A stretch of 63,876 nucleotides of DNA, taken from positions 1 through 63,876 of the forward strand of contig JADMKJ010000197.1 in the NCBI GenBank assembly GCA_015478855.1, in the 5' to 3' direction. The stretch comes from Proteiniphilum sp. (GTDB lineage Bacteria > Bacteroidota > Bacteroidia > Bacteroidales > Dysgonomonadaceae). Made by a program: the position numbers and the translations under genes. Positions 7,457 to 17,963 of the stretch are shown here, one piece after another; the stretch's first letter is position 1, and each line of letters begins with the position of its first letter. Below the pieces are notes generated by a model. That model was not told where the DNA came from. It did no database searches and saw only the letters and a list, made by a program, of their open reading frames with translations.

Positions 7457-8560
7457 ATGAAACAGTTTATTGCATTTATACATAAAGAGTTCTATCATAT
7501 CTTCCGCGATAACAGAACGTTGCTGGTGATACTGGGGATGCCCGTAGTGGAGATACTGCTGTTTGGCTTTGCCATCAACATGGAAGTGCAGGATATCCGC
7601 GTGGCTGTTTACGATCCCACCCCTGATGCACTCACCACCGGCATTGCAGAGCGCATACGACAGAACAGCTACTTCAATTACCAGGGTAACGTACAGTCGA
7701 TGGAGAAGATGGAGGCTTCAATGCGAAAAGGAGAACTTGATCTGGCTGTTGTCTTTCAGCAAAACTTCCAGGAGAGCCTCGTGCACTCCGGAGAAGGGGC
7801 TGTGCAACTGCTCTCCAACAGCTCCGACCCCAACAGGGGGTCTATCGCCGCAACCTATGCCACGGCCATCATTGCAGGTTATCAGATGGAACAGATGGAG
7901 ATCAGCGAGATACCTTTTCAGATTAAGACCGAAAACAGGATGATCTATAATCCGCTGATGAAATCCTCCTATATGTTTGTGCCGGGTATCATGGGGCTGG
8001 TGCTGATGATCATCTGTACCATCATGACCTCTGTCTCCATCATCCGCGAAAAGGAGCGCGGCACCATGGAGGTGCTGCTGGCATCACCACTGAAACAGGG
8101 AACCATGATCTTTGCCAAGACCATACCCTATATGATCATATCCATGATCGACCTGGTCATTATCCTGCTGCTTAGTTATTTTGTGCTGGATGTCCCCATC
8201 AACGGCAGCCTGCTGCTGCTCCTGTTGATCTCTCTCATCTACATCACCCTCACGCTGTCGTACGGACTGACCATCTCCACCATGGTCAACAAACAGGTCA
8301 ATGCGGTCATCGTCTCGGCTATCACCGCAATGATCCCTGTGCTGATGCTCTCAGGAATGATCTTCCCCATAGAGAGCATGCCCCCGGTGCTTCAGGCCTT
8401 CTCGACCATCGTTCCTGCACGATGGTTTATTGATGCGGTGAGGAAGGTCATGATTCAGGGACAGGGAATAATGATGGTATGGAAAGAGATGCTCGTATTA
8501 ACGGGAATGACCCTCCTCCTGTTAGGGGTTACGATTTTAAAGACCAAGAAAAGACTTTAA
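7457..8560 (+). CDS. ABC-2 type permease, first of two
   Basis: Membrane subunit of the exporter. It has one N-terminal membrane segment, a periplasmic loop of about 130 residues, then five hydrophobic segments, and the conserved ABC-2 patch EKERGTMEVLLASPL. At 367 residues it matches YbhS/YbhR. It pairs with the permease encoded at 8752, with which it shares the fold and the IREKE/MEKEN region but not close sequence identity. A tract of tandem repeats separates the two genes. Confidence 0.92.
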   Translation: MKQFIAFIHKEFYHIFRDNRTLLVILGMPVVEILLFGFAINMEVQDIRVAVYDPTPDALTTGIAERIRQNSYFNYQGNVQSMEKMEASMRKGELDLAVVFQQNFQESLVHSGEGAVQLLSNSSDPNRGSIAATYATAIIAGYQMEQMEISEIPFQIKTENRMIYNPLMKSSYMFVPGIMGLVLMIICTIMTSVSIIREKERGTMEVLLASPLKQGTMIFAKTIPYMIISMIDLVIILLLSYFVLDVPINGSLLLLLLISLIYITLTLSYGLTISTMVNKQVNAVIVSAITAMIPVLMLSGMIFPIESMPPVLQAFSTIVPARWFIDAVRKVMIQGQGIMMVWKEMLVLTGMTLLLLGVTILKTKKRL

Positions 8561-8561
8561 C

Positions 8562-8673
8562 GTTAGTAGGTTAGTAGGTTAGTAGGTTAGTAGGTTAATA
8601 GGTTAGTAAGTTAGTAAGTTAATAGGTAAGTAAGTTAGTAAAATAATAGGTTAGTAAGTTCTTAGGTTTATAA
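8562..8673 (+). repeat. Octamer tandem repeat GTTAGTAG
   Basis: Fourteen consecutive 8-bp units beginning with four exact copies of GTTAGTAG (8562-8593), then variants such as GTTAATAG, GTTAGTAA and GTAAGTAA that decay toward the right. It starts one base after the stop of the first permease gene, inside an operon. Confidence 0.9.
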
Positions 8674-8680
8674 GTTGGTC

Positions 8681-8743
8681 GCTGAAAGCTGACTGCTGAA
8701 AGCTGAAAGCTGATCACTGATCACTGACCGCTGATCGCTAAAA
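8681..8743 (+). repeat. Heptamer tandem repeat GCTGAAA
   Basis: Nine 7-bp units: GCTGAAA, GCTGACT, GCTGAAA, GCTGAAA, GCTGATC, ACTGATC, ACTGACC, GCTGATC, GCTAAAA. It ends 8 nt before the ATG of the second permease gene, so it occupies the leader where translation initiates. Confidence 0.85.
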
Positions 8744-8751
8744 AATATCAT

Positions 8752-9888
8752 ATGAAATCATTAAAATATCTCATCGAAAAAGAGTTTAAACAGATGTTCA
8801 GGAACCCGCTGATTCCAAGATTGATTGTGCTGTTTCCCACCATGGTGTTGCTGGTTTTTCCATGGGCAGTGAGTTTCGAGATAAAGAACATCAAAATTGA
8901 TGTGGTGGACCACAGCAAAAGTGTCTATTCAAGGCGCCTCACCGATAAGATTGCTGCTTCACAGTACTTTATATTAAACGATACGCCGCCCGATTATCAG
9001 ACAGCGATGATGAATATGGAACAGGGTGAGACAGATATGATCCTGGAGATCCCTGCTTCATTCGACAAGGAGATGGTGAAAAGCAGATCTACGGGAGTAG
9101 GTGTGGCTGTCAACGCTGTTAACGGTACACAGGGTCTGCTGGGGAGTAATTACATCATGCAGATCGCGAACGAATTTTCGACTGATCTTCGCGGAGAACT
9201 GATGCATACCATGCCTGCACAATCACGCGCATCGATGATGCGGATGCCGCAGATAGAGATCATCCCGCAATACAGGTTTAATCCGGCGTTGGACTATAAA
9301 AACTTCATGATCCCCGGCTTCATGGTGCTGCTGCTCACGATCATCTGCGGTATCCTGCCTGCACTGAATATCGTGATGGAGAAAGAGAACGGCACCATTC
9401 AACAGATCAATGTGACCCCGGTAAGCAGGATCGGCTTTATCCTGGCCAAGCTGATTCCTTTCTGGATTGTAGGTCTGGTGGTGATGATCATCTCTGTCAC
9501 GGTGACATACCTGATGTATGGTCTATGGCCGGCAGGGAGTATGCTGGCAGTGCTTTTCTCTGCTATTGTCTTTATCTTCTCCATATCGGGTCTGGGGATC
9601 ATCATCTCAAACTATTCCGAGAATATGCAGCAGGCAAGCTTTCTGGTGATGTTCTTTATCCTGATCCTGATACTGCTTGGCGGTATGTTCACCCCTGTTT
9701 CCAGCATGCCCTCCTGGGCCAGGGTGATTGCAGCGGTGAACCCGTTCAATTACCTGACAAAAACCTTCCGGATGCTCTATCTGAACGGCAGCACACTGGC
9801 TGATGTGTCGGGGAACCTGCTGATATTGGGTATCATTGCTGTAATCCTCAATGGCTGGGCAGTGCTCAGCTATAAGAAGAGAGGATGA
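8752..9888 (+). CDS. ABC-2 type permease, second of two
   Basis: Partner membrane subunit. The topology is as in the first permease: one N-terminal membrane helix (residues of about 20-40), a large extracytoplasmic loop and five helices near the C terminus, with the ABC-2 patch MEKENGTIQQINVTPVS. At 378 residues it has the family length. The protein begins MKSLKYLIEKEFKQMFRNP, a cytoplasmic amphipathic start shared by these permeases. The preceding 191 nt consist almost entirely of tandem repeats. The pldA-like gene starts a few tens of bases downstream. Confidence 0.92.
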   Translation: MKSLKYLIEKEFKQMFRNPLIPRLIVLFPTMVLLVFPWAVSFEIKNIKIDVVDHSKSVYSRRLTDKIAASQYFILNDTPPDYQTAMMNMEQGETDMILEIPASFDKEMVKSRSTGVGVAVNAVNGTQGLLGSNYIMQIANEFSTDLRGELMHTMPAQSRASMMRMPQIEIIPQYRFNPALDYKNFMIPGFMVLLLTIICGILPALNIVMEKENGTIQQINVTPVSRIGFILAKLIPFWIVGLVVMIISVTVTYLMYGLWPAGSMLAVLFSAIVFIFSISGLGIIISNYSENMQQASFLVMFFILILILLGGMFTPVSSMPSWARVIAAVNPFNYLTKTFRMLYLNGSTLADVSGNLLILGIIAVILNGWAVLSYKKRG

Positions 9889-9930
9889 AGCTGATATGAT
9901 GAACGAATGTTGAACACAGCGTGTAGTGAA

Positions 9931-10842
9931 ATGAAACATTTATTTTTGTTACCCGTCATCCTGATGCTGCTTGTATTTATGCCTGATATAAATGCTCAGT
10001 CAGAAGCAAGCCCTGCCGATTCAACAAAGTGGCCTCTTAAGCGTCTTATTGAAGGTGCAAAATCAAAGATAGCATACGACAGGCAAGAGTTGACCATGAC
10101 AGAAGATGATATTATCAGGAGAATGGACTCCCTCCCACCCTTTTCCATCTACAAAGACAACTTTTTTATTACCGGCATTCCACTCAGAAGAGAGATCAGC
10201 GGAGAAACAGCCGACGCCAAATTCCAGATCAGTATCCGTCATCGCCTTACAACCAGCCGCTTACCCTTCGATTCGTTCCTCTTCCTGACCTATACACAGA
10301 AGTCGTTTTGGAATATCTACCGTAAATCCGCACCTTTCAGGGATAGTAACTACAATCCCGGTATTGGATTGGGAAGATATATAATTGTTGATAATCAGCT
10401 CACAGGGGCTGTGTTCCTGCAGCTCGAACATGAATCCAATGGACGCGACGAGGAAGAGTCACGGAGTATCAACTGGATCGGCTTAAGCGGCAAATATTAC
10501 ATTACCTCCAATCTTGCAGTCAGATTCAAGGTCGTCGTGCCTTTCCTTCCGGATGAAACAAACAGCGATATACTTGATTACAGGGGGACAGGTTTTTATT
10601 CTGTTGACTACAAGACATCGAACAACCGATGGTGGCTGTCAGGTACTTACAGCCCGAAAAAAAGTGTAAAGGCACTCAATCTCCGGTTGAGTGCCGGCTA
10701 CAAGATCTCGGACAGATTCAATCAATATATCTTCGGAGAACTATACAGCGGCACCGGTGACAGCCTGCTTGATTACAACCGAAAAGATCTGCAGTTGCGT
10801 GCAGGGATCTGCATCAAACCCGCTTTTTTTGATGTGTTTTAA
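9931..10842 (+). CDS. pldA: Outer-membrane phospholipase A1 (OMPLA)
   Basis: Calcium-dependent outer-membrane lipase that hydrolyses phospholipids misplaced in the outer leaflet. The OMPLA active-site pattern is present: HESNG gives His and Ser two residues apart, and SRSIN places Asn twelve residues after the Ser, the same spacing as His142, Ser144 and Asn156 of E. coli OMPLA. The upstream stretch YTQKSFWNIY and APFRDSNYNPGIGLG also matches the family. I prefer ATG 9931 because it opens directly with a signal peptide. An in-frame ATG at 9907 is the alternative. It closes the efflux operon. Confidence 0.88.
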   Translation: MKHLFLLPVILMLLVFMPDINAQSEASPADSTKWPLKRLIEGAKSKIAYDRQELTMTEDDIIRRMDSLPPFSIYKDNFFITGIPLRREISGETADAKFQISIRHRLTTSRLPFDSFLFLTYTQKSFWNIYRKSAPFRDSNYNPGIGLGRYIIVDNQLTGAVFLQLEHESNGRDEEESRSINWIGLSGKYYITSNLAVRFKVVVPFLPDETNSDILDYRGTGFYSVDYKTSNNRWWLSGTYSPKKSVKALNLRLSAGYKISDRFNQYIFGELYSGTGDSLLDYNRKDLQLRAGICIKPAFFDVF

Positions 10843-10902: not shown

Positions 10903-11955
10903 TTATGATTTCAGGGTTTGGGGGAAGTATCTCCTGGTGTTGTTGGCAATGCGCACCAGCATCAGCATCACCGGCACCTCCACCAGCACCCCTACCGTGG
11001 TTGCCAGGGCTGCTCCCGACTCAAGCCCGAAGAGTGAGATAGCCACGGCGACAGCCAGCTCGAAGAAGTTGCTTGCCCCGATCATGCCGGCAGGGGCGGC
11101 CACATCATGCGGCAGCCTCCATGCTTTAGCCCACCCGTAGGCGATGAAGAAGATCAGCACCGTCTGAATGATCAGCGGAATGGCAATCAACAGGATATGA
11201 AGCGGGTTCTGCAGGATGGTATCACCCTGGAACGAGAAGAGGATGATCAGCGTGAGCAGCAACCCCCCCACGGTGATGTTGTTGAATTTCTTTATAAAGA
11301 CATTGTTGAAGTAGTCGATCCCCCGCCTTTTCACCACGTAGATGCGTGTGAGCATACCGGCCAGCAGCGGCACTACCACGAAGAGCACCACCGAGAGGAA
11401 GAGCGTATCCCAGGGTATGGCGATCCCTCCTATGCCGAGTAGCAGACCCACGATAGGGACAAACGCCACCAGGATGATCAGGTCGTTCAGCGCCACCTGC
11501 ACCAGGGTATAGGCTGCATCACCCCGGGTGAGGTGACTCCAGACGAACACCATGGCGGTACAGGGAGCAGCGCCCAGCAGCACCGCGCCGGCAAGGTACT
11601 GGTCGGCCAGCGCAGCGGGGATAAGCGACTTGAACACCACGAAAAAGAAGAACCATGCGATGGCGAACATGGTGAAGGGTTTGATCAGCCAGTTGGTCAC
11701 CCCGGTGATCAGGATACCTTTCGGCTTTCTGCCCACATTTTTCACGCTGTTGAAATCTACCTTTAACATCATGGGGAATATCATCAGCCATATAAGGATG
11801 GCTACCGGAATAGAGACATTGGCGTACTCGAACTGATGCAGTGTGGCAGGTACGGATGGGATATAGAGACCGATCAGAATGCCCGCCACAATACAGATGG
11901 CTACCCAGAGTGTGAGGGTTCGTTCAAAAAAACTTATGCCTTGACTTTTCTTCAT
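10903..11955 (-). CDS. acr3: ACR3-type arsenite efflux permease
   Basis: Secondary transporter exporting As(III) across the inner membrane. It has about ten membrane segments in 350 residues. The conserved ACR3 cysteine lies in LLGAAPCTAMVFVWS and the conserved Glu in GASNFFELAVAVA, both known to be essential in ACR3 proteins. It is the last gene of the minus-strand arsenic operon, 55 nt after arsM. The 3' end converges on pldA with a 60-nt gap in which I see no clear terminator. Confidence 0.93.
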   Translation of the reverse strand: MKKSQGISFFERTLTLWVAICIVAGILIGLYIPSVPATLHQFEYANVSIPVAILIWLMIFPMMLKVDFNSVKNVGRKPKGILITGVTNWLIKPFTMFAIAWFFFFVVFKSLIPAALADQYLAGAVLLGAAPCTAMVFVWSHLTRGDAAYTLVQVALNDLIILVAFVPIVGLLLGIGGIAIPWDTLFLSVVLFVVVPLLAGMLTRIYVVKRRGIDYFNNVFIKKFNNITVGGLLLTLIILFSFQGDTILQNPLHILLIAIPLIIQTVLIFFIAYGWAKAWRLPHDVAAPAGMIGASNFFELAVAVAISLFGLESGAALATTVGVLVEVPVMLMLVRIANNTRRYFPQTLKS

Positions 11956-12010
11956 ATTTTTTATTTTATAATTGAAATTTATCTGTTTTTTGTAAACAGT
12001 AAATTGGAAA

Positions 12011-12817
12011 TTAATTTTTATATCCCGATACCGTAATGCTGTAAATACCGGTATTACTATCTTTAAAACGGATACTCTCTGTACCGGATAGATACTTAAC
12101 CATTATCTCCTTAGGGATCAGGATTTCTTTTTGTTTGTGAATGGTGATATTTTTAAATCCCTGCAGTGCTATGATGCTGAGATATTCACTTATCTCAATT
12201 GCACCCGAAACACAACCTACGTACATCTCGGCATCATTCTTTAACGCTTCGGGTAGATTGCCTTTGAGCACCACATCAGAAACGCAGAAATGTCCCGAAG
12301 GTTTTAAGACCCTCATCATTTCAGCAAAGGCTTTATTTTTGTCAGGTACAAGGTTCAACACACAATTGGAGACGATTACATCAAATGTACTGTCGGTAAA
12401 AGGCATCTCTTCAATATCGCCTTTCACAAACGAAACGTTCGTATGTCCAAGCTTATGGGCATTTTCAACTGCTCTGCTGACCATGGCGTCAGTGAAATCC
12501 AAACCGGTTACCCTGCCGGTATCACCAACAATGGCTCGCGCAACAAAGCAATCATTTCCAGCACCACTTCCAAGGTCAAGCAGATGATCTCCTCTCTTTA
12601 TATCCGCAAATTGGGTAGGGATACCACAGCCTAAACCCAAATCGGCTTCCGGATTGTAGCCTTCCACATGTTGATATTCATCGCCAATCATGCTGAATTC
12701 CAGTTCTCCACAACATCCCGAAGATTCGCAACAGGATAATGGAGCCATTTGTAAACTGCGATTGGCAATAGCTCCATACTTTTTCTTTACCACCTCTTTT
12801 AAATCCACTGACTTCAT
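12011..12817 (-). CDS. arsM: Arsenite S-adenosylmethionine methyltransferase
   Basis: Methylates As(III) with SAM to mono-, di- and trimethyl species. It has a Rossmann SAM-binding motif (LLDLGSGAGNDCF) and the three conserved arsenic-binding cysteines: Cys64 in GLGCGIP, Cys152 in VSNCVLNL and Cys202 in YVGCVSGA, corresponding to Cys72, Cys174 and Cys224 of CmArsM. Two extra Cys pairs (29-30, 35-36) lie near the N terminus. The start overlaps the arsC stop by 4 nt (ATGA), indicating translational coupling. Confidence 0.93.
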   Translation of the reverse strand: MKSVDLKEVVKKKYGAIANRSLQMAPLSCCESSGCCGELEFSMIGDEYQHVEGYNPEADLGLGCGIPTQFADIKRGDHLLDLGSGAGNDCFVARAIVGDTGRVTGLDFTDAMVSRAVENAHKLGHTNVSFVKGDIEEMPFTDSTFDVIVSNCVLNLVPDKNKAFAEMMRVLKPSGHFCVSDVVLKGNLPEALKNDAEMYVGCVSGAIEISEYLSIIALQGFKNITIHKQKEILIPKEIMVKYLSGTESIRFKDSNTGIYSITVSGYKN

Positions 12818-13239
12818 AACTGAGGTTTTAATTGCTCAACATACAGTTGATGAAAATCTTTTTTTATCTGATCGCGAATCCTGTAAAACTCACTCAAAAT
12901 AAATTCTTCAGATCCTTTTGCATGGGATGGGTCCTCATAGCCCATGTGCAACCGCTGTTTCACTTTCCCCGTAAAAAGAGGACATGTTTCGTTGGCATGG
13001 TCACATACCGTAATCACATAATCCCATTCATCTTTGATGTACTGGTCTACCATTTGGGGCGTATGATTGCTGATATCAATCCCCACCTCTTTCATCACTT
13101 TGACGGCGGTTTGGTTTACCTGCCGGGCAGGTTCGGTTCCGGCCGAACGAACAGTTAACTTCTCATCGAAACGCTGCAAAAAACCATGTGCCATCTGGCT
13201 GCGGCAGCTGTTGCCGGTACAAAGAATAAGTATTTTCAT
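12814..13239 (-). CDS. arsC: Arsenate reductase, thioredoxin-coupled type
   Basis: Reduces As(V) to As(III). It has the low-molecular-weight phosphatase fold with P-loop CTGNSCRS (catalytic Cys7, Arg13) and the resolving pair Cys79 and Cys86 (VCDHANETCP) that identifies the thioredoxin-dependent class, as in Staphylococcus and Bacillus ArsC. The Asp of the DPSH segment replaces the usual DPA. The length of 141 residues is typical. It is coupled to arsM and lies 71 nt after the permease gene. The thioredoxin-like protein upstream could be its reductant. Confidence 0.93.
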   Translation of the reverse strand: MKILILCTGNSCRSQMAHGFLQRFDEKLTVRSAGTEPARQVNQTAVKVMKEVGIDISNHTPQMVDQYIKDEWDYVITVCDHANETCPLFTGKVKQRLHMGYEDPSHAKGSEEFILSEFYRIRDQIKKDFHQLYVEQLKPQL

Positions 13240-13310
13240 CTTGAAATAAATTAAATTGATTTTTAAAATGTGAACTATTATAACAGAATCGTGTTACCAA
13301 CGGTTTAGTT

Positions 13311-14654
13311 TCAAAAAAACGTACCATAGACAAGACCTGAGAAGGTAGCCATGATCATCACCAGCACCACGTATACAAGCGTCTTCCTGGTCCCCATCAC
13401 ACCACGGATCACCAGCATGTTGGGTAGTGAGAGCGAGGGTCCCGCAAGCAGCAGTGCCAGCGCGGGACCTTTACCCATACCACTGGAAAGCAGTCCCTGC
13501 ACAATAGGTACCTCGGTGAGCGTGGCAAAATACATGAATGCCCCGGTGAAGCTGGCGAAGAAGTTGGAGAAAAGAGAGTTCCCTCCTACTGCCCACTCGA
13601 TCCACTCGTTGGGCACCACGCCGGGAATGGCCACATTGTCGTGCGTCGATCCCAACAGGAACCCGGCGGTCACCACCCCGATGGCCAGCAGCGGCATGAT
13701 CTGCTTGGCAAAACCCCAGGCAGAGAGCGTCCACTCCCTGTTCTCCTCATCGTTCCGGTCGAAGAGGGTCACCACAGCAAGCGCGGCTATACCCACAACC
13801 ATCGGCACCATCGGCGCCAGTTTTGGGTCGGGGATAAAATGGCCGGCAAGAAGTGCCGACAGTGCTGTTGCAACAACACCCAGCAATACCCACTGCCATT
13901 TAATCTTCAGAATCTTTATCAGCGACCAGGCAAGCATCAGCGACAGGAAGCCGGTGATGTACCATTTGTAGCTGAAGAGATAGAACCATACACTTGCAGT
14001 GTCACCTGATGCGGGTGCACCCCAGTTGGCAGCCACCAGGATAAGCACCAGCGTAAAAAAGTGGAACATCGTCTGCCACACCGGACGTTTTGCCGGTGGT
14101 GCCTCGAAGTTCATCTGCTCCTCCTGCTTTGCTTTCTCCTCCTTGCGGTAGATAAATGCCATCACCAGTCCGATAATGACCGAGAAAAGGACAGCTCCAA
14201 TCATCCGCGCAATCCCCATCTCCGTACCGAGGATGCTCCAGGTGAGGATGATGGAGAGGATGCTGATGGCTGGTCCCGAGTAGAGGAACGCTACTGCCGG
14301 TCCCAATCCTGCTCCCCGCTTATAGATACTTGTAAAGAGAGGGAGGATGGTGCAGGAGCAGACTGCCAGGATGGCTCCGGAAACAGAGGCCACTGTATAG
14401 GAAAGCCATCTGTTTGCATTCGCTCCAAAGTAACGGATCACCGATCCCTGGCTGATGAATACCGCGATCACCCCGGCAATGAAAAAAGCCGGGAGCAGAC
14501 AGAGGATCACATGCTCCTGTGCGTACCATTTAGAGAGATCGAGGGTGGCAACGATGGCGGTCATAAATCGCTCACTGCTGATGGGAAGAAAGAAGATCAA
14601 CCCAAAAATTAGCACCATCAAGCCCAGATATTTTAATTCTTTTTTTGTATCCAT
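13311..14654 (-). CDS. arsP: ArsP-type (DUF318) permease
   Basis: Polytopic membrane protein of the DUF318 permease family, some members of which (ArsP) export trivalent organoarsenicals such as methylarsenite. It shows the two repeated family signatures: AVCSCTILPLFTSIYKRG with a Cys-Ser-Cys near the start, and the second-half pattern TLTEVPIVQGLLSSGMGKGP. The length of 447 residues and ten or more hydrophobic segments fit. The symbol rests on family plus context, and DUF318 proteins have other possible substrates. It sits mid-operon between the thioredoxin-like gene and arsC. Confidence 0.8.
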   Translation of the reverse strand: MDTKKELKYLGLMVLIFGLIFFLPISSERFMTAIVATLDLSKWYAQEHVILCLLPAFFIAGVIAVFISQGSVIRYFGANANRWLSYTVASVSGAILAVCSCTILPLFTSIYKRGAGLGPAVAFLYSGPAISILSIILTWSILGTEMGIARMIGAVLFSVIIGLVMAFIYRKEEKAKQEEQMNFEAPPAKRPVWQTMFHFFTLVLILVAANWGAPASGDTASVWFYLFSYKWYITGFLSLMLAWSLIKILKIKWQWVLLGVVATALSALLAGHFIPDPKLAPMVPMVVGIAALAVVTLFDRNDEENREWTLSAWGFAKQIMPLLAIGVVTAGFLLGSTHDNVAIPGVVPNEWIEWAVGGNSLFSNFFASFTGAFMYFATLTEVPIVQGLLSSGMGKGPALALLLAGPSLSLPNMLVIRGVMGTRKTLVYVVLVMIMATFSGLVYGTFF

Positions 14655-14726
14655 TTTTTATTCTTTAGACAATACAATCTCATTCCACGTGAGTGTCGCG
14701 GTTGACAGAATAGCACCTACTGCTAT

Positions 14727-14960
14727 TTAAAGACCTATAATCTTTTTTATCTCTGCCTCGGATGGTACATGCCCTTTCACCTTCACCTCACCGTCGACCA
14801 CCACTGCCGGTGTCGTCATCACGTTATACTTCATGATCTCCATGATGTCCTCCACCTTACGCAGTGTCACCTCTGCTCCGCTCTGATCCACCACTTTTCT
14901 GATGGCGTCGTAGGTCAAAACGCATTTTTTGCAACCCGGTCCCAATACCAATACTTCCAT
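14727..14960 (-). CDS. Small thioredoxin-like redox protein, possible ArsE
   Basis: A 77-residue cytoplasmic protein of the small redox-active disulfide (thioredoxin-like) family. The active site CKKC is at residues 10-13, and a cis-Pro follows in VMTTPAVVVDGEV. It lies 72 nt before the ArsP-type gene and 51 nt after the arsG-like gene. In the arsEFG set reported for nitroaromatic arsenicals, ArsE is, as I recall, a protein of this kind. That identity is inferred from context. Passing electrons to the arsF or arsC product is equally possible. Confidence 0.75.
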   Translation of the reverse strand: MEVLVLGPGCKKCVLTYDAIRKVVDQSGAEVTLRKVEDIMEIMKYNVMTTPAVVVDGEVKVKGHVPSEAEIKKIIGL

Positions 14961-15011
14961 AATTATTTATCTTTTTTGATTGTTATTTGTTGATGTTCTT
15001 CTTTCATTATT

Positions 15012-15713
15012 TCAGAGGCTGATGATGATATAATAAGCGCCCACAATAATAAATACGGTAGCAACGACTCGCTTGAACCACTTTTGAAAACTGTTCATCC
15101 TGTTGTAGAACTTACCTATATTGCTCACGCTATAGGCCAGCAGCCAGGCGATGATGATTACCGGAAGACCTGTGGCTATGGCAAAAATCGGCGGTAGCAG
15201 GAGTCCCGATGTGGAGGCGATCGTCATCGGAATCAATCCTCCGAAGTAGAGCATCCCGCTATAGGGACAGAACGCCAGTGCGAACAGCAGTCCCAGCAGG
15301 AAAGCATCCCAGTAGGTTTTCTTTCCCTTTTTATTGCCTAACTTCTCCGTCAGCCTGCCCACTCCGGGGAGGTTCAACTGTATGATATCGAGCATAAAGA
15401 TGCCGATCACAAGTAAAGCCACACCTAGCCAGATACCGCCGAGAACCTGCAATTGACCGGCAATCTTAAACTGGCTTGCACCGAAAAAGAAGAGCATGCC
15501 AAGCGTGGTATAGGTAAACATCCTTCCCAGCGTATAAAATAGGCCGTTGAATAAAACACGTTTCTTGATACCGATATCTTTGCTCAGATAAGCAGTTGCC
15601 GTGATATTTGTCGCCAGAGGACAAGGGCTGATGGCCGTCATCAGGCCGAGCAGGAACGCTGTGAGCAGTGGCCAGCCGGAGCCTTCCGTCAGGCTCTGTA
15701 GAAAATTCATCAT
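15012..15713 (-). CDS. arsG: ArsG-like membrane protein (CcdA/DsbD family fold)
   Basis: Six-helix membrane protein of 233 residues, homologous in pattern to CcdA/DsbD electron carriers. It has paired Pro-flanked cysteines, Cys31 in AISPCPLATN and Cys149 in LAFCPYSG, one in each half. NCBI families name relatives aromatic aminobenzylarsenical efflux permease ArsG. The Cys pair makes transmembrane electron transfer to the ArsF-like lipoprotein an alternative to efflux. It is 21 nt downstream of arsF, and both lie in the arsenic operon. Confidence 0.78.
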   Translation of the reverse strand: MMNFLQSLTEGSGWPLLTAFLLGLMTAISPCPLATNITATAYLSKDIGIKKRVLFNGLFYTLGRMFTYTTLGMLFFFGASQFKIAGQLQVLGGIWLGVALLVIGIFMLDIIQLNLPGVGRLTEKLGNKKGKKTYWDAFLLGLLFALAFCPYSGMLYFGGLIPMTIASTSGLLLPPIFAIATGLPVIIIAWLLAYSVSNIGKFYNRMNSFQKWFKRVVATVFIIVGAYYIIISL

Positions 15714-15734
15714 TGTTCAGCGCTATTCTTTCTT

Positions 15735-16187
15735 TTAAAGCCTTTGCTCCACCTCACTCTTCAGTTTCTCTCCCAAATCCTCAGGATTGTTCACGGCATT
15801 GGCAAATGCATACTGTGTCAGGTCGATATGGTCATCACCTTTTGCAATGATCAGCGCGTTCCATGTCACACCATACCTGTCCACAAGTTCCTTGTTCACT
15901 GCTTCATCGGTCTTTATTTCCAAAAATTGCACTTTCTGATTGTCACCATACATCCGGTTCACTGTTTCCTGAGCGGAATTTTGAACAGCTATACATGTCT
16001 TACAGCGTTGTTTGCCGTGAAAATAATAGACATAGACTGTAGAAGAATCAGCGCTTGCAACTGAGGTTACTTCTGAGGTGCTTACGGTTGTATTTACAGA
16101 AGCATCCGCTGAATCTGTTTTTTTCTCGTTTGTACCACAGGAGGTTAAGGTGATAGCTGCCAATAGGATAAAAAGAACTCGTTTCAT
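15735..16187 (-). CDS. arsF: ArsF-like thioredoxin-fold lipoprotein
   Basis: Exported lipoprotein (LTSC lipobox, Cys17) followed by a Ser/Thr-rich linker and a thioredoxin-like domain with CKTC at residues 62-65 (YYFHGKQRCKTC). Relatives are named nitrophenyl compound nitroreductase subunit ArsF, a component of the arsEFG set. The fold and location suggest a redox partner of the CcdA-like ArsG protein encoded next to it. Direct nitro-group reduction by this protein is not evident from the sequence. Confidence 0.75.
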   Translation of the reverse strand: MKRVLFILLAAITLTSCGTNEKKTDSADASVNTTVSTSEVTSVASADSSTVYVYYFHGKQRCKTCIAVQNSAQETVNRMYGDNQKVQFLEIKTDEAVNKELVDRYGVTWNALIIAKGDDHIDLTQYAFANAVNNPEDLGEKLKSEVEQRL

Positions 16188-16220
16188 AGGTTTAAATTTT
16201 AATTGGTTTATTGAAGAGAT

Positions 16221-16237
16221 TTCGTTTAAATTTCGAA
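16221..16237. promoter_or_regulatory. Possible third ArsR site before arsF
   Basis: TTCG (16221-16224) and CGAA (16234-16237) flank a 9-nt spacer. The two sites before arsR have the same arms with an 8-nt spacer. The spacing difference makes this a weak candidate. Confidence 0.25.
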
Positions 16238-16287
16238 TCTGTTAATTTGTTGCCGGGATCTTTCATGGGAGGTGAGACACAATTTCG

Positions 16288-16608
16288 TCAGCAGTAGCTT
16301 TTTACCTGTGCAATATTGTCAATAAAAGTCTTCATTATCTCACTTGTACGCTCCCAGTTTTGCTTGTTTATGCAATACTTCACTGTGGGAGGAGTGAACT
16401 CACCCTGTATCAATCCTGCCTCCTTCAGCTCATTCAGATGCTGTGAGAGAGTACTCTTGGCTACCGGTATGATCTCCGACATGTCGCCATGATAACAGCA
16501 GTTCTGGTTGGCCAGTAGTTGCAAAATGGCAATCCTTACCGGATGAGCCAACACCTTGGCGAGGCGGGAGATCGTAAGCTGCTCTTCTGTAAATTCTTTT
16601 TTTGACAT
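16288..16608 (-). CDS. arsR: ArsR/SmtB-family arsenic-responsive repressor
   Basis: Winged-helix repressor released from DNA by As(III). The recognition helix region is MSEIIPVAKSTLSQHLNELK. Potential metal ligands are Cys37-Cys38 (NQNCCYHGD), Cys79 and the terminal Cys106. This layout differs from the ELCVCDL site of classical E. coli ArsR but is common in Bacteroidetes. It is the first gene of the operon, and two matching operators cover its promoter. A 100-nt leader separates it from arsF. Confidence 0.9.
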   Translation of the reverse strand: MSKKEFTEEQLTISRLAKVLAHPVRIAILQLLANQNCCYHGDMSEIIPVAKSTLSQHLNELKEAGLIQGEFTPPTVKYCINKQNWERTSEIMKTFIDNIAQVKSYC

Positions 16609-16633
16609 ATCTGTTATCTGTAATTTGTTTCAG

Positions 16634-16649
16634 TTCGCAAATATACGAA
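16634..16649. promoter_or_regulatory. ArsR operator 1, enclosing the -7 box
   Basis: TTCGCAAATATACGAA: 4-bp inverted arms around 8 nt. Read on the minus strand it contains TATATTTG, the -7 element of the arsR promoter. Repressor binding here would block the promoter directly. Confidence 0.78.
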
Positions 16650-16668
16650 TAGTTGTTTAGTTCGCAAA
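16638..16668 (-). promoter_or_regulatory. Promoter of the arsenic operon
   Basis: On the minus strand, TTTG (16668-16665), a 19-nt spacer and TATATTTG (16645-16638) give an exact Bacteroidetes promoter. The arsR start codon is 29 nt further on. Both boxes lie within ArsR-like palindromes. Confidence 0.8.
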
Positions 16669-16676
16669 CAGACGAA
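16661..16676. promoter_or_regulatory. ArsR operator 2, enclosing the -33 box
   Basis: TTCGCAAACAGACGAA repeats the arms and first half of operator 1, 27 bp away. On the minus strand it contains the TTTG -33 element. Confidence 0.75.
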
Positions 16677-16770
16677 CAGTTTTTTATCTTTTCAATTAGT
16701 TGAAAAAAATATATCTTTACGGGAAATTCATTTTCCATGATAGTTGAGTGGAAAGAAAAACAGCATAAAG

Positions 16771-17376
16771 ATGATACTGGATAGATTACCTGTGGAGAAC
16801 AGTGGCAGATTAAATCCCGGAATTACAAGGAAAGAGGCATTTGCACTGGTTGAAAAATACAATAAAGAACCTTTTCACCTACAACATGCCTCAACGGTGG
16901 AAGCGGTGATGCGTTATTTTGCTGCTAAACTGGGCTATGGTAGCGAAACGGACTTCTGGGGGTTGGTGGGATTGTTGCATGACCTCGATTTTGAACAGTA
17001 CCCCGACGAACACTGTATAAAGGTGCGTGAGATTTTCGACGCCGCAGGGATTAACCCTCAAATCAAGCGTGCCGTGGTTTCTCACGCTTACGGATTCACA
17101 CAGAACGATGTAAAACCGGAACATCAGATGGAGAAAGTGCTCTATGCTGCTGACGAACTTACAGGTCTCATAGGTGCAGCCATTTTGATGCGACCGAGCA
17201 GAAGCACGCTCGATTTAACGGTACAGTCGCTGAAAAAGAAATATAAAGACAAAAAATTTGCTGCTGGCTGCTCCCGTGAGGTAATCAGGGAGGGGGCTGA
17301 ATTGTTGGGCTGGGAACTTGAACACCTGATGGATCAAACCATTAAAGCCATGCAGCAGAATGAACAGAGAGAATGA
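16771..17376 (+). CDS. HD-domain protein
   Basis: Putative metal-dependent phosphohydrolase. The HD signature is in LLHDLDFEQYPDEH, with His in VVSHAYG and Asp in AADELTGL as further ligands. It begins at ATG 16771. An in-frame TTG at 16744 would add nine residues. It is divergent from arsR, but its own promoter region is separate from the ArsR operators, so a link to arsenic is doubtful. The substrate is unknown. Confidence 0.8.
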   Translation: MILDRLPVENSGRLNPGITRKEAFALVEKYNKEPFHLQHASTVEAVMRYFAAKLGYGSETDFWGLVGLLHDLDFEQYPDEHCIKVREIFDAAGINPQIKRAVVSHAYGFTQNDVKPEHQMEKVLYAADELTGLIGAAILMRPSRSTLDLTVQSLKKKYKDKKFAAGCSREVIREGAELLGWELEHLMDQTIKAMQQNEQRE

Positions 17377-17489: not shown

Positions 17490-17963
17490 ATGAAAACATT
17501 GGATTATTTACAATTAGATCTTAAAAGCACAAAGAAAACCGTTGACGGTCTGCAGGAGTTACTGGCCAATTTACAGCTTTACTATACCAACCTGCGTGGC
17601 TATCACTGGAATGTGAAAGGTATTGAATTTTTCGGAGCTCATGCCAGGTTTGAAGCGTTCTATGATGACACAGCTGCAAAAGTGGATGAAGTGGCAGAAC
17701 GCATACTTATGTTAGGTGGTGTACCTGCGCATAACTATAGTGACTACCTGAAAGCCTCCACCATCAAGGAGAGTGGAGTTGTCAGCAATGCGAAAGAGAT
17801 TATCAGGCTTATCCTCGATGACCTGAAAGTATTGATCGGTCTCGAACGGAAACTGCTTGAGACAGCCTCTGCAGCTAACGATGAAGGTACTGTTGCCCTT
17901 ATGGGTGATTACATATCGGGACAGGAGAAGAATGTTTGGATGCTTACAGCATTTCTTTCATAA
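17490..17963 (+). CDS. dps: Dps-family ferritin-like DNA protection protein
   Basis: Dodecameric mini-ferritin that oxidises and stores iron with H2O2 and protects DNA. The family ferroxidase segment is present: YHWNVKG (His) followed by HARFEAFYDDTAAKVDEVAER (His, Asp, Glu ligands), then the conserved LGG turn. The length of 157 residues is typical. It is monocistronic, with a -7 element upstream and a hairpin terminator after the stop. The N terminus lacks a Lys-rich tail, so DNA binding may be weak. Confidence 0.93.
   Translation: MKTLDYLQLDLKSTKKTVDGLQELLANLQLYYTNLRGYHWNVKGIEFFGAHARFEAFYDDTAAKVDEVAERILMLGGVPAHNYSDYLKASTIKESGVVSNAKEIIRLILDDLKVLIGLERKLLETASAANDEGTVALMGDYISGQEKNVWMLTAFLS

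Follow-up and report, generated by a model that had tools for sequence, protein, structure and literature searches.

The genes arsE, arsF and arsG were reportedly described as a set by Chen, Zhang and Rosen in 2019, with Shewanella putrefaciens 200 as the source strain. The ars operon of Bacteroides vulgatus ATCC 8482, reported on by Li, Mandal and Rosen in 2016, is said to comprise arsR, three genes of unknown function and arsDABC, and to be induced best by methylarsenite; presumably, the three genes may be the same arsEFG trio. Here, we analysed an ars operon of Proteiniphilum sp. (Bacteroidota), located in a stretch of 63,876 nucleotides (contig JADMKJ010000197.1, assembly GCA_015478855.1), hereafter the window. 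It carries the complete arsEFG trio along with ArsP, ArsC, ArsM and Acr3, having arsP-arsC-arsM-acr3 where the B. vulgatus operon reportedly has arsDABC. Sets of CcdA, thioredoxin and 'redox-active disulfide protein 2' are also known from ars operons (Castillo and Saier 2010, PMC2963123) and share three roles with the trio: a DsbD-type membrane protein, a thioredoxin-like protein and an MTH895-type protein. In this operon, two published names, arsEFG and the 'CcdA plus thioredoxins' known from ars operons, fall on a single object. Our preferred interpretation, to which we assign a probability of about 0.5, is that arsEFG, within an ArsR-controlled operon, would form a relay of cysteine pairs across the inner membrane, most likely moving reducing equivalents outward.

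A sequence-only reading of this locus had described eight collinear, closely spaced ars genes, and the open reading frames (ORFs) bear this out. All eight lie on the minus strand between positions 16608 and 10903, in the transcription order arsR-arsF-arsG-arsE-arsP-arsC-arsM-acr3; neighbouring genes are 21-100 bp apart at six of the seven junctions, whereas arsC and arsM share 4 bp. The upper end given in that reading, position 16676, takes in the operator upstream of arsR. Families were assigned by scanning the window proteins against NCBIfam, at its curated cut-offs, and Pfam, at E 0.001:

16608-16288, minus strand: arsR, ArsR/SmtB-family repressor of 106 amino acids (aa); NF033788 at 54.1 bits, just under the cut-off of 55
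16187-15735, minus strand: arsF, 150 aa; NF040494 at 96.6 bits (cut-off 60)
15713-15012, minus strand: arsG, CcdA/DsbD_2-like membrane protein of 233 aa; NF040495 at 297.6 bits (cut-off 200)
14960-14727, minus strand: arsE, 77 aa with CKKC; TIGR00412, 'MTH895/ArsE family' thioredoxin-like, at 106.4 bits (cut-off 62)
14654-13311, minus strand: arsP-type permease, 447 aa; assigned through Pfam PF03773 alone
13239-12814, minus strand: arsC, putative thioredoxin-type arsenate reductase with the low-molecular-weight phosphatase fold; TIGR02691 at 135.7 bits, under the cut-off of 174.3
12817-12011, minus strand: arsM, arsenite methyltransferase; NF008823 at 324.4 bits (cut-off 263)
11955-10903, minus strand: acr3, arsenite efflux transporter; TIGR00832 at 386.2 bits (cut-off 282.8)

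The gene names given in the sequence-only reading, and the pairing of inorganic with organic arsenic functions, hold at the family level in these scans, and the operon is a genuine arsenic-resistance operon composed of known gene families. The 'small CKKC thioredoxin' of that reading is indeed thioredoxin-like, but it had been left unnamed: by its TIGR00412 score it is ArsE, the third gene of arsEFG. All three trio proteins score above the cut-offs of the NCBIfam models for ArsE, ArsF and ArsG, which we assume to rest on the 2019 proteins. By these family models the trio is like the 2019 arsEFG; in the window it has the order F-G-E and forms one unit with arsP, arsC, arsM and acr3. The ArsC cysteines C7, C12, C79 and C86 are all present in 37 of 37 aligned rows, and C64, C152 and C202 of ArsM are kept in 18 of 18 (window included in both cases). 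In the NCBIfam scan, the window permease matched no ArsP model, its top match being the SO_0444 Cu/Zn family, under the cut-off. It is the sole PF03773 match found in the available genome sequence and carries both published cluster-1 signatures of ArsP, HVILCLLPAFFIAG and LAVCSC (motifs Hv(L/I)xClvPAfFIAG and LAV-C(S/T)C, PMC4435449), shorter forms of which occur in 28 of 28 close relatives. With regard to a possible island around the operon, the G+C content, in 1-kb steps, ranges from 0.40 to 0.53 across the operon and from 0.42 to 0.52 in its flanks.

The evidence for a relay comes from the conserved cysteine pair of each trio protein and from the kinship of ArsG with CcdA. In Pfam, window ArsG matches PF13386 (DsbD_2), the membrane domain of CcdA/DsbD proteins, at 83 bits (cut-off 24.9). 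The ArsG profile has a single match in the PDB, the T. thermophilus CcdA structure 5vkv, at E 3.6e-4 for the whole sequence and 0.006 for the best stretch. Window ArsG has two cysteines, C31 (SPC) and C149 (FCP), and no others. ArsE, which matches the solved MTH895 structure 1ilo at E 5e-21, has C10 and C13 alone, with P51 at the cis-Pro position. ArsF has the CxxC pair C62/C65 and, in addition, C17, which ends an N-terminal lipobox (LPAM_1 at 20.0 bits, exactly its Pfam cut-off). These residues were followed in two sets of loci. The first contains the best 80 of at least 579 confirmed relatives, gathered with ArsG alignment patterns and belonging to Bacteroidota or unspecified taxa, apart from one Alphaproteobacteria. 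The second contains 33 loci found with hidden Markov models (HMMs), the window and the profile-building loci included. In the first set, both ArsG cysteines are present in 80/80, the ArsF CxxC in 84/84 and the ArsE CxxC in 77/77, the last lying inside the first 30 residues in 71 proteins and behind longer N-termini in the other six. Since the search patterns of this set contained FCP[YTS]SG, its 80/80 for FCP is partly built in, and the HMM-found count is the fair one. There, the second ArsG cysteine is present in all 32 sequences that reach that far and the first in 32 of 33; the CxxC is found in 30 of 30 ArsF and 29 of 30 ArsE proteins, being absent from one ArsE relative. C10, C13 and P51 of ArsE occur in 78 of 78 aligned rows.

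In the proposed relay, ArsE would be the cytosolic CxxC member, ArsG the membrane member, of CcdA descent and with one cysteine in each half, and ArsF the exported CxxC member. We infer that the cargo would be reducing equivalents carried outward, with which ArsF, in the periplasm, may bring about the reduction of arsenicals or their release from thiols. ArsF would act alongside the ArsP-type exporter; inorganic arsenic would be handled by ArsC, ArsM and Acr3. An electron-transfer path made of a CcdA-like protein with periplasmic and cytoplasmic CxxC partners had been offered in the sequence-only reading as an alternative explanation. The cysteine inventory and the homologies back such a path, but it is not a separate option, as it consists of the same proteins, ArsG, ArsF and ArsE.

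The names under which the trio is annotated, those of the 2019 arsEFG, carry a different function, in which ArsE and ArsF would be nitroreductase subunits for nitroaromatic arsenicals and ArsG an efflux permease for the amino products. The scores above the cut-offs of the models bearing these names agree with it in all three window proteins. However, the NCBIfam and Pfam scans gave no flavin nitroreductase family for either ArsE or ArsF at E 0.001; ArsE is thioredoxin-like, and ArsF matches NF040494, a model of lipoprotein N-termini and, weakly, thioredoxins. Moreover, the trio is present in many environmental isolates and metagenome-assembled genomes, which suggests that feed additives are hardly its main purpose. 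The handling of aromatic additives, which the sequence-only reading had included on the strength of a link between ArsF/ArsG relatives and arsenicals such as roxarsone, was borne out by none of the analyses of this operon. Judged from these matches, we consider the annotated function unlikely.

Several observations weigh against the relay of reducing equivalents, and most of them concern ArsG and ArsF. In an alignment with CcdA, the first ArsG cysteine lies in SPC, as in CcdA, whereas the second lies in FCP where CcdA has TPC, a displacement of two residues from the CcdA PC. FCP is found in 32 of the 32 HMM-found sequences that reach it. In contrast, PC occurs at both sites in all 23 listed CcdA/DsbD-like proteins that fall below the ArsG cut-off (24 loci were compared, L014 having no match to the profile used). 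In the phylogenetic tree, the ArsG proteins with FCP form one side of a branch supported by 100/98 (31 ArsG versus 22 CcdA rows). By homology, ArsG belongs with the CcdA/DsbD carriers, but of its two halves only the first has the cysteine in their PC context. The likeness of ArsF to thioredoxins is weak (best E 0.018), and its cis-Pro is missing. PDB thioredoxin alignments place the cis-Pro column at ArsF residue 111 (3ul3, 4o32) or 110 (3ziv, 7vu4). Column 111 has Pro in 0 of 88 rows (T, A, S, G or Q being found instead), column 110 in one of 88, and any position between 107 and 113 in two of 88; in 30 of 30 HMM-found sequences, Pro is present in neither column 110 nor column 111. As predicted thioredoxin-type redox proteins, ArsE has both the CxxC and the cis-Pro, and ArsF the CxxC only. 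The export of ArsF is also putative: a crude lipobox pattern fits only 35 of 84 ArsF proteins, so a lipid anchor is not general among them, and some of those lacking the lipobox have signal-like N-termini, judged by eye. Finally, ArsG is listed among demonstrated efflux transporters in a published account (PMC9144182).

To these points can be added the occurrence of ArsE without its partners. In 30 loci (L143-L172), which are the best-scoring ArsE matches and of which 29 come from one family, arsR and arsE stand without arsF or arsG in flanks of about 1.5 kb, and a permease is present in 28 of the 30. ArsE near a permease without ArsF and ArsG argues that it is not only a relay donor, and hints at a role as a cytosolic partner of the permease. 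In one of these loci (L150), the arsG of a trio lies about 1.9 kb farther on. The permease beside ArsE in these loci is a cluster-2-like ArsP.

A parallel set of genes speaks for the relay and allows the trio to be compared with a more conventional arrangement. Among 24 loci with ArsG matches below the cut-off, eight (L010, L013, L014, L016, L018, L021, L026 and L030) have ArsE in view together with a thioredoxin with a signal-like N-terminus and a CcdA. The thioredoxin is present in 8/8, and the CcdA was detected by the profile built for this analysis in seven and by NF040495 in the eighth; a further ars-type match adjoins six of the eight. Pfam assigns the thioredoxins of L010, L021 and L025 to PF13098/PF00085, although no ArsE is in view in L025, and the CcdA proteins of L021 and L030 to PF02683. 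The cis-Pro (IPT or IPS) is present in 14 of 14 parallel-set thioredoxins, chosen by their CxPC motif. The parallel set, thus, has a true thioredoxin with cis-Pro and a CcdA with PC, whereas ArsF and ArsG differ from it in both respects; the instances in PMC2963123 may be of either version. Elsewhere in the Proteiniphilum genome, a 696-codon DsbD-type frame is found, which could serve housekeeping.

The contrast with the parallel set is what makes arsenic conceivable as the cargo. A trivalent organoarsenical takes two thiolates, and it might be handed from the ArsE CxxC to the ArsG cysteine pair and on to the ArsF CxxC, ArsG being a CcdA-derived exporter with CcdA-type movement. The FCP of ArsG and the missing cis-Pro of ArsF depart from redox chemistry in a way that the parallel CcdA and thioredoxin do not, and the published efflux label of ArsG is consistent with such a hand-off. 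On the other hand, ArsE retains its cis-Pro, and 65 of the 80 loci already have a permease of the ArsP type. Besides, the periplasmic partner of DsbD, DsbD-alpha, likewise lacks the thioredoxin cis-Pro, so the loss of this residue is compatible with electrons as cargo, which speaks against the hand-off. Weighing these residues, we see it as possible, though not likely. We are doubtful of the more specific proposal that ArsEFG is a CcdA-derived arsenical conveyor (ArsE to ArsG to ArsF), in which an electron carrier became a metalloid exporter through the shifted ArsG cysteine and the lost cis-Pro of its partner. The FCP in place of PC and the missing cis-Pro are point-like differences that bear directly on whether electrons or arsenic are the cargo. 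With arsenic as the cargo, the trio would represent a novel type of exporter; with electrons, the efflux label of ArsG would have to be corrected in many genomes (related places number at least 579). While operons of this kind are already known, neither the FCP of ArsG nor the cis-Pro loss of ArsF was found described in the literature searched, which was not full-text and did not include the 2019 arsEFG study.

The gene neighbourhoods of the 80 loci also bear on the outward relay, in which ArsF would act beside the permease. Same-strand neighbours up to 8 kb away were counted, by BLAST to E 1e-3; many loci are ended by contig edges. ArsF and ArsG are present in 80/80, ArsE in 77/80, ArsR in 74/80 and the ArsP-type permease in 65/80, followed by ArsC (34/80), Acr3 (29/80) and ArsM (17/80). 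The presence of ArsF beside ArsG in every locus indicates that their grouping is not due to chance. Among contiguous orders, R-E-F-G-permease (30 loci, with both kinds of permease) and R-F-G-E-P1 (six loci) are seen most often. All eight genes of the window are present as the sequence-only reading proposed, but their fixity as one unit had been overstated: the exact eight-gene order occurs in one of the 80 loci (L065), and the main partners of the trio are ArsR and the ArsP-type permease. The window operon is, therefore, an ordinary member of a rearranging set. Among 64 typable permease genes, 28 have the cluster-1 motif and 36 the cluster-2 motif, with none mixed. Of the 64 loci with at least 2.5 kb of sequence downstream of arsG, 45 have the permease there at a distance of no more than 1.2 kb; it may be of either ArsP cluster.

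The same counts bear on the suggestion, made in PMC2963123, that the redox proteins supply electrons to the thioredoxin-type ArsC. The window ArsC keeps the four cysteines of the thioredoxin-coupled type, and arsC is present in seven of the eight instances given there. In our survey, however, ArsC is found in far fewer loci than the permease, although cut contigs lower both counts, and the authors of that proposal thought a transmembrane flow less likely, ArsC being cytoplasmic. We hold this supply route to be quite improbable.

The frequency of the trio varies with the sampling, whether phylum-wide or among close relatives. Within the genus, 13 of 36 other genomes have an ArsG above the cut-off, and among relatives overall the figure is 27 of 61, as opposed to 6 of 296 in a phylum-wide sample (the operon's own genome included in the last two counts). 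The trio is, thus, frequent in close relatives and rarer farther away. Taken with the survey, these counts indicate a core made of the trio with ArsR and a permease, to which ArsC, ArsM and Acr3 are optional neighbours. Five loci (L085, L090, L099, L104 and L128) have two arsF genes in tandem ahead of arsG, separated by 8-12 bp. Two congeners (L058 and L057) have a damaged arsG, one with an in-frame stop and one with a non-matching start, which may point to decay of the trio in part of the relatives. Plasmid records gave 14 matches, of which one, in Prevotella, is annotated as ArsG.

The control of the operon by ArsR is indicated by two elements upstream of arsR:

16661-16676 and 16634-16649, minus strand: doubled ArsR-type operator, TTCG-N8-CGAA (16-bp palindrome), the copies 27 bp apart
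16638-16668, minus strand: promoter-like element TTTG-N19-TATATTTG, overlapped by both operator copies

We take the promoter-like element to resemble the Bacteroidota promoter consensus; its pattern occurs six times in the window, counting both strands, and the palindrome occurs four times in the entire window. Of the 65 relatives that could be scored, 52 have the palindrome close to the start of arsR, compared with 0.023 occurrences per 370 bp in the rest of the same loci. Two copies are present in seven of the 65, with a spacing of 27 bp in all seven. In 19 of 61 loci, the palindrome is found, too, in the stretch separating the trio from the permease gene (cluster-1 permeases, 5 of 28; cluster-2 permeases, 14 of 33), and the permease of those loci is thereby linked to the same regulator. 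Across 71 ArsR rows, window included, C37 is conserved in 67, C38 in 70 and C79 in 71. The vicinal pair C37/C38 sits just ahead of the recognition helix, as placed by eye, with C79 in addition. ArArsR of Arsenicibacter rosenii responds to As(III) and methylarsenite, and its footprint contains ATCGTAATATTGCGAT, which resembles the window operator TTCGTATATTTGCGAA (PMC11868830). Three cysteines of ArArsR, one N-terminal and two later (Cys41/80/82), are required for As(III), while window ArsR has the conserved C37/C38/C79. Compared by position alone, this arrangement differs from the ArsR types covered in PMC11868830.

The operon is flanked by genes of other kinds:

7457-9888: two ABC-2 membrane proteins in succession
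9907-10842: phospholipase A1 family protein (PF02253), convergent with acr3
16744-17376: ORF of 210 aa, divergent from arsR and unmatched in Pfam at E 0.001
17490-17963: ferritin-like protein (PF00210), on the opposite strand, beyond arsR

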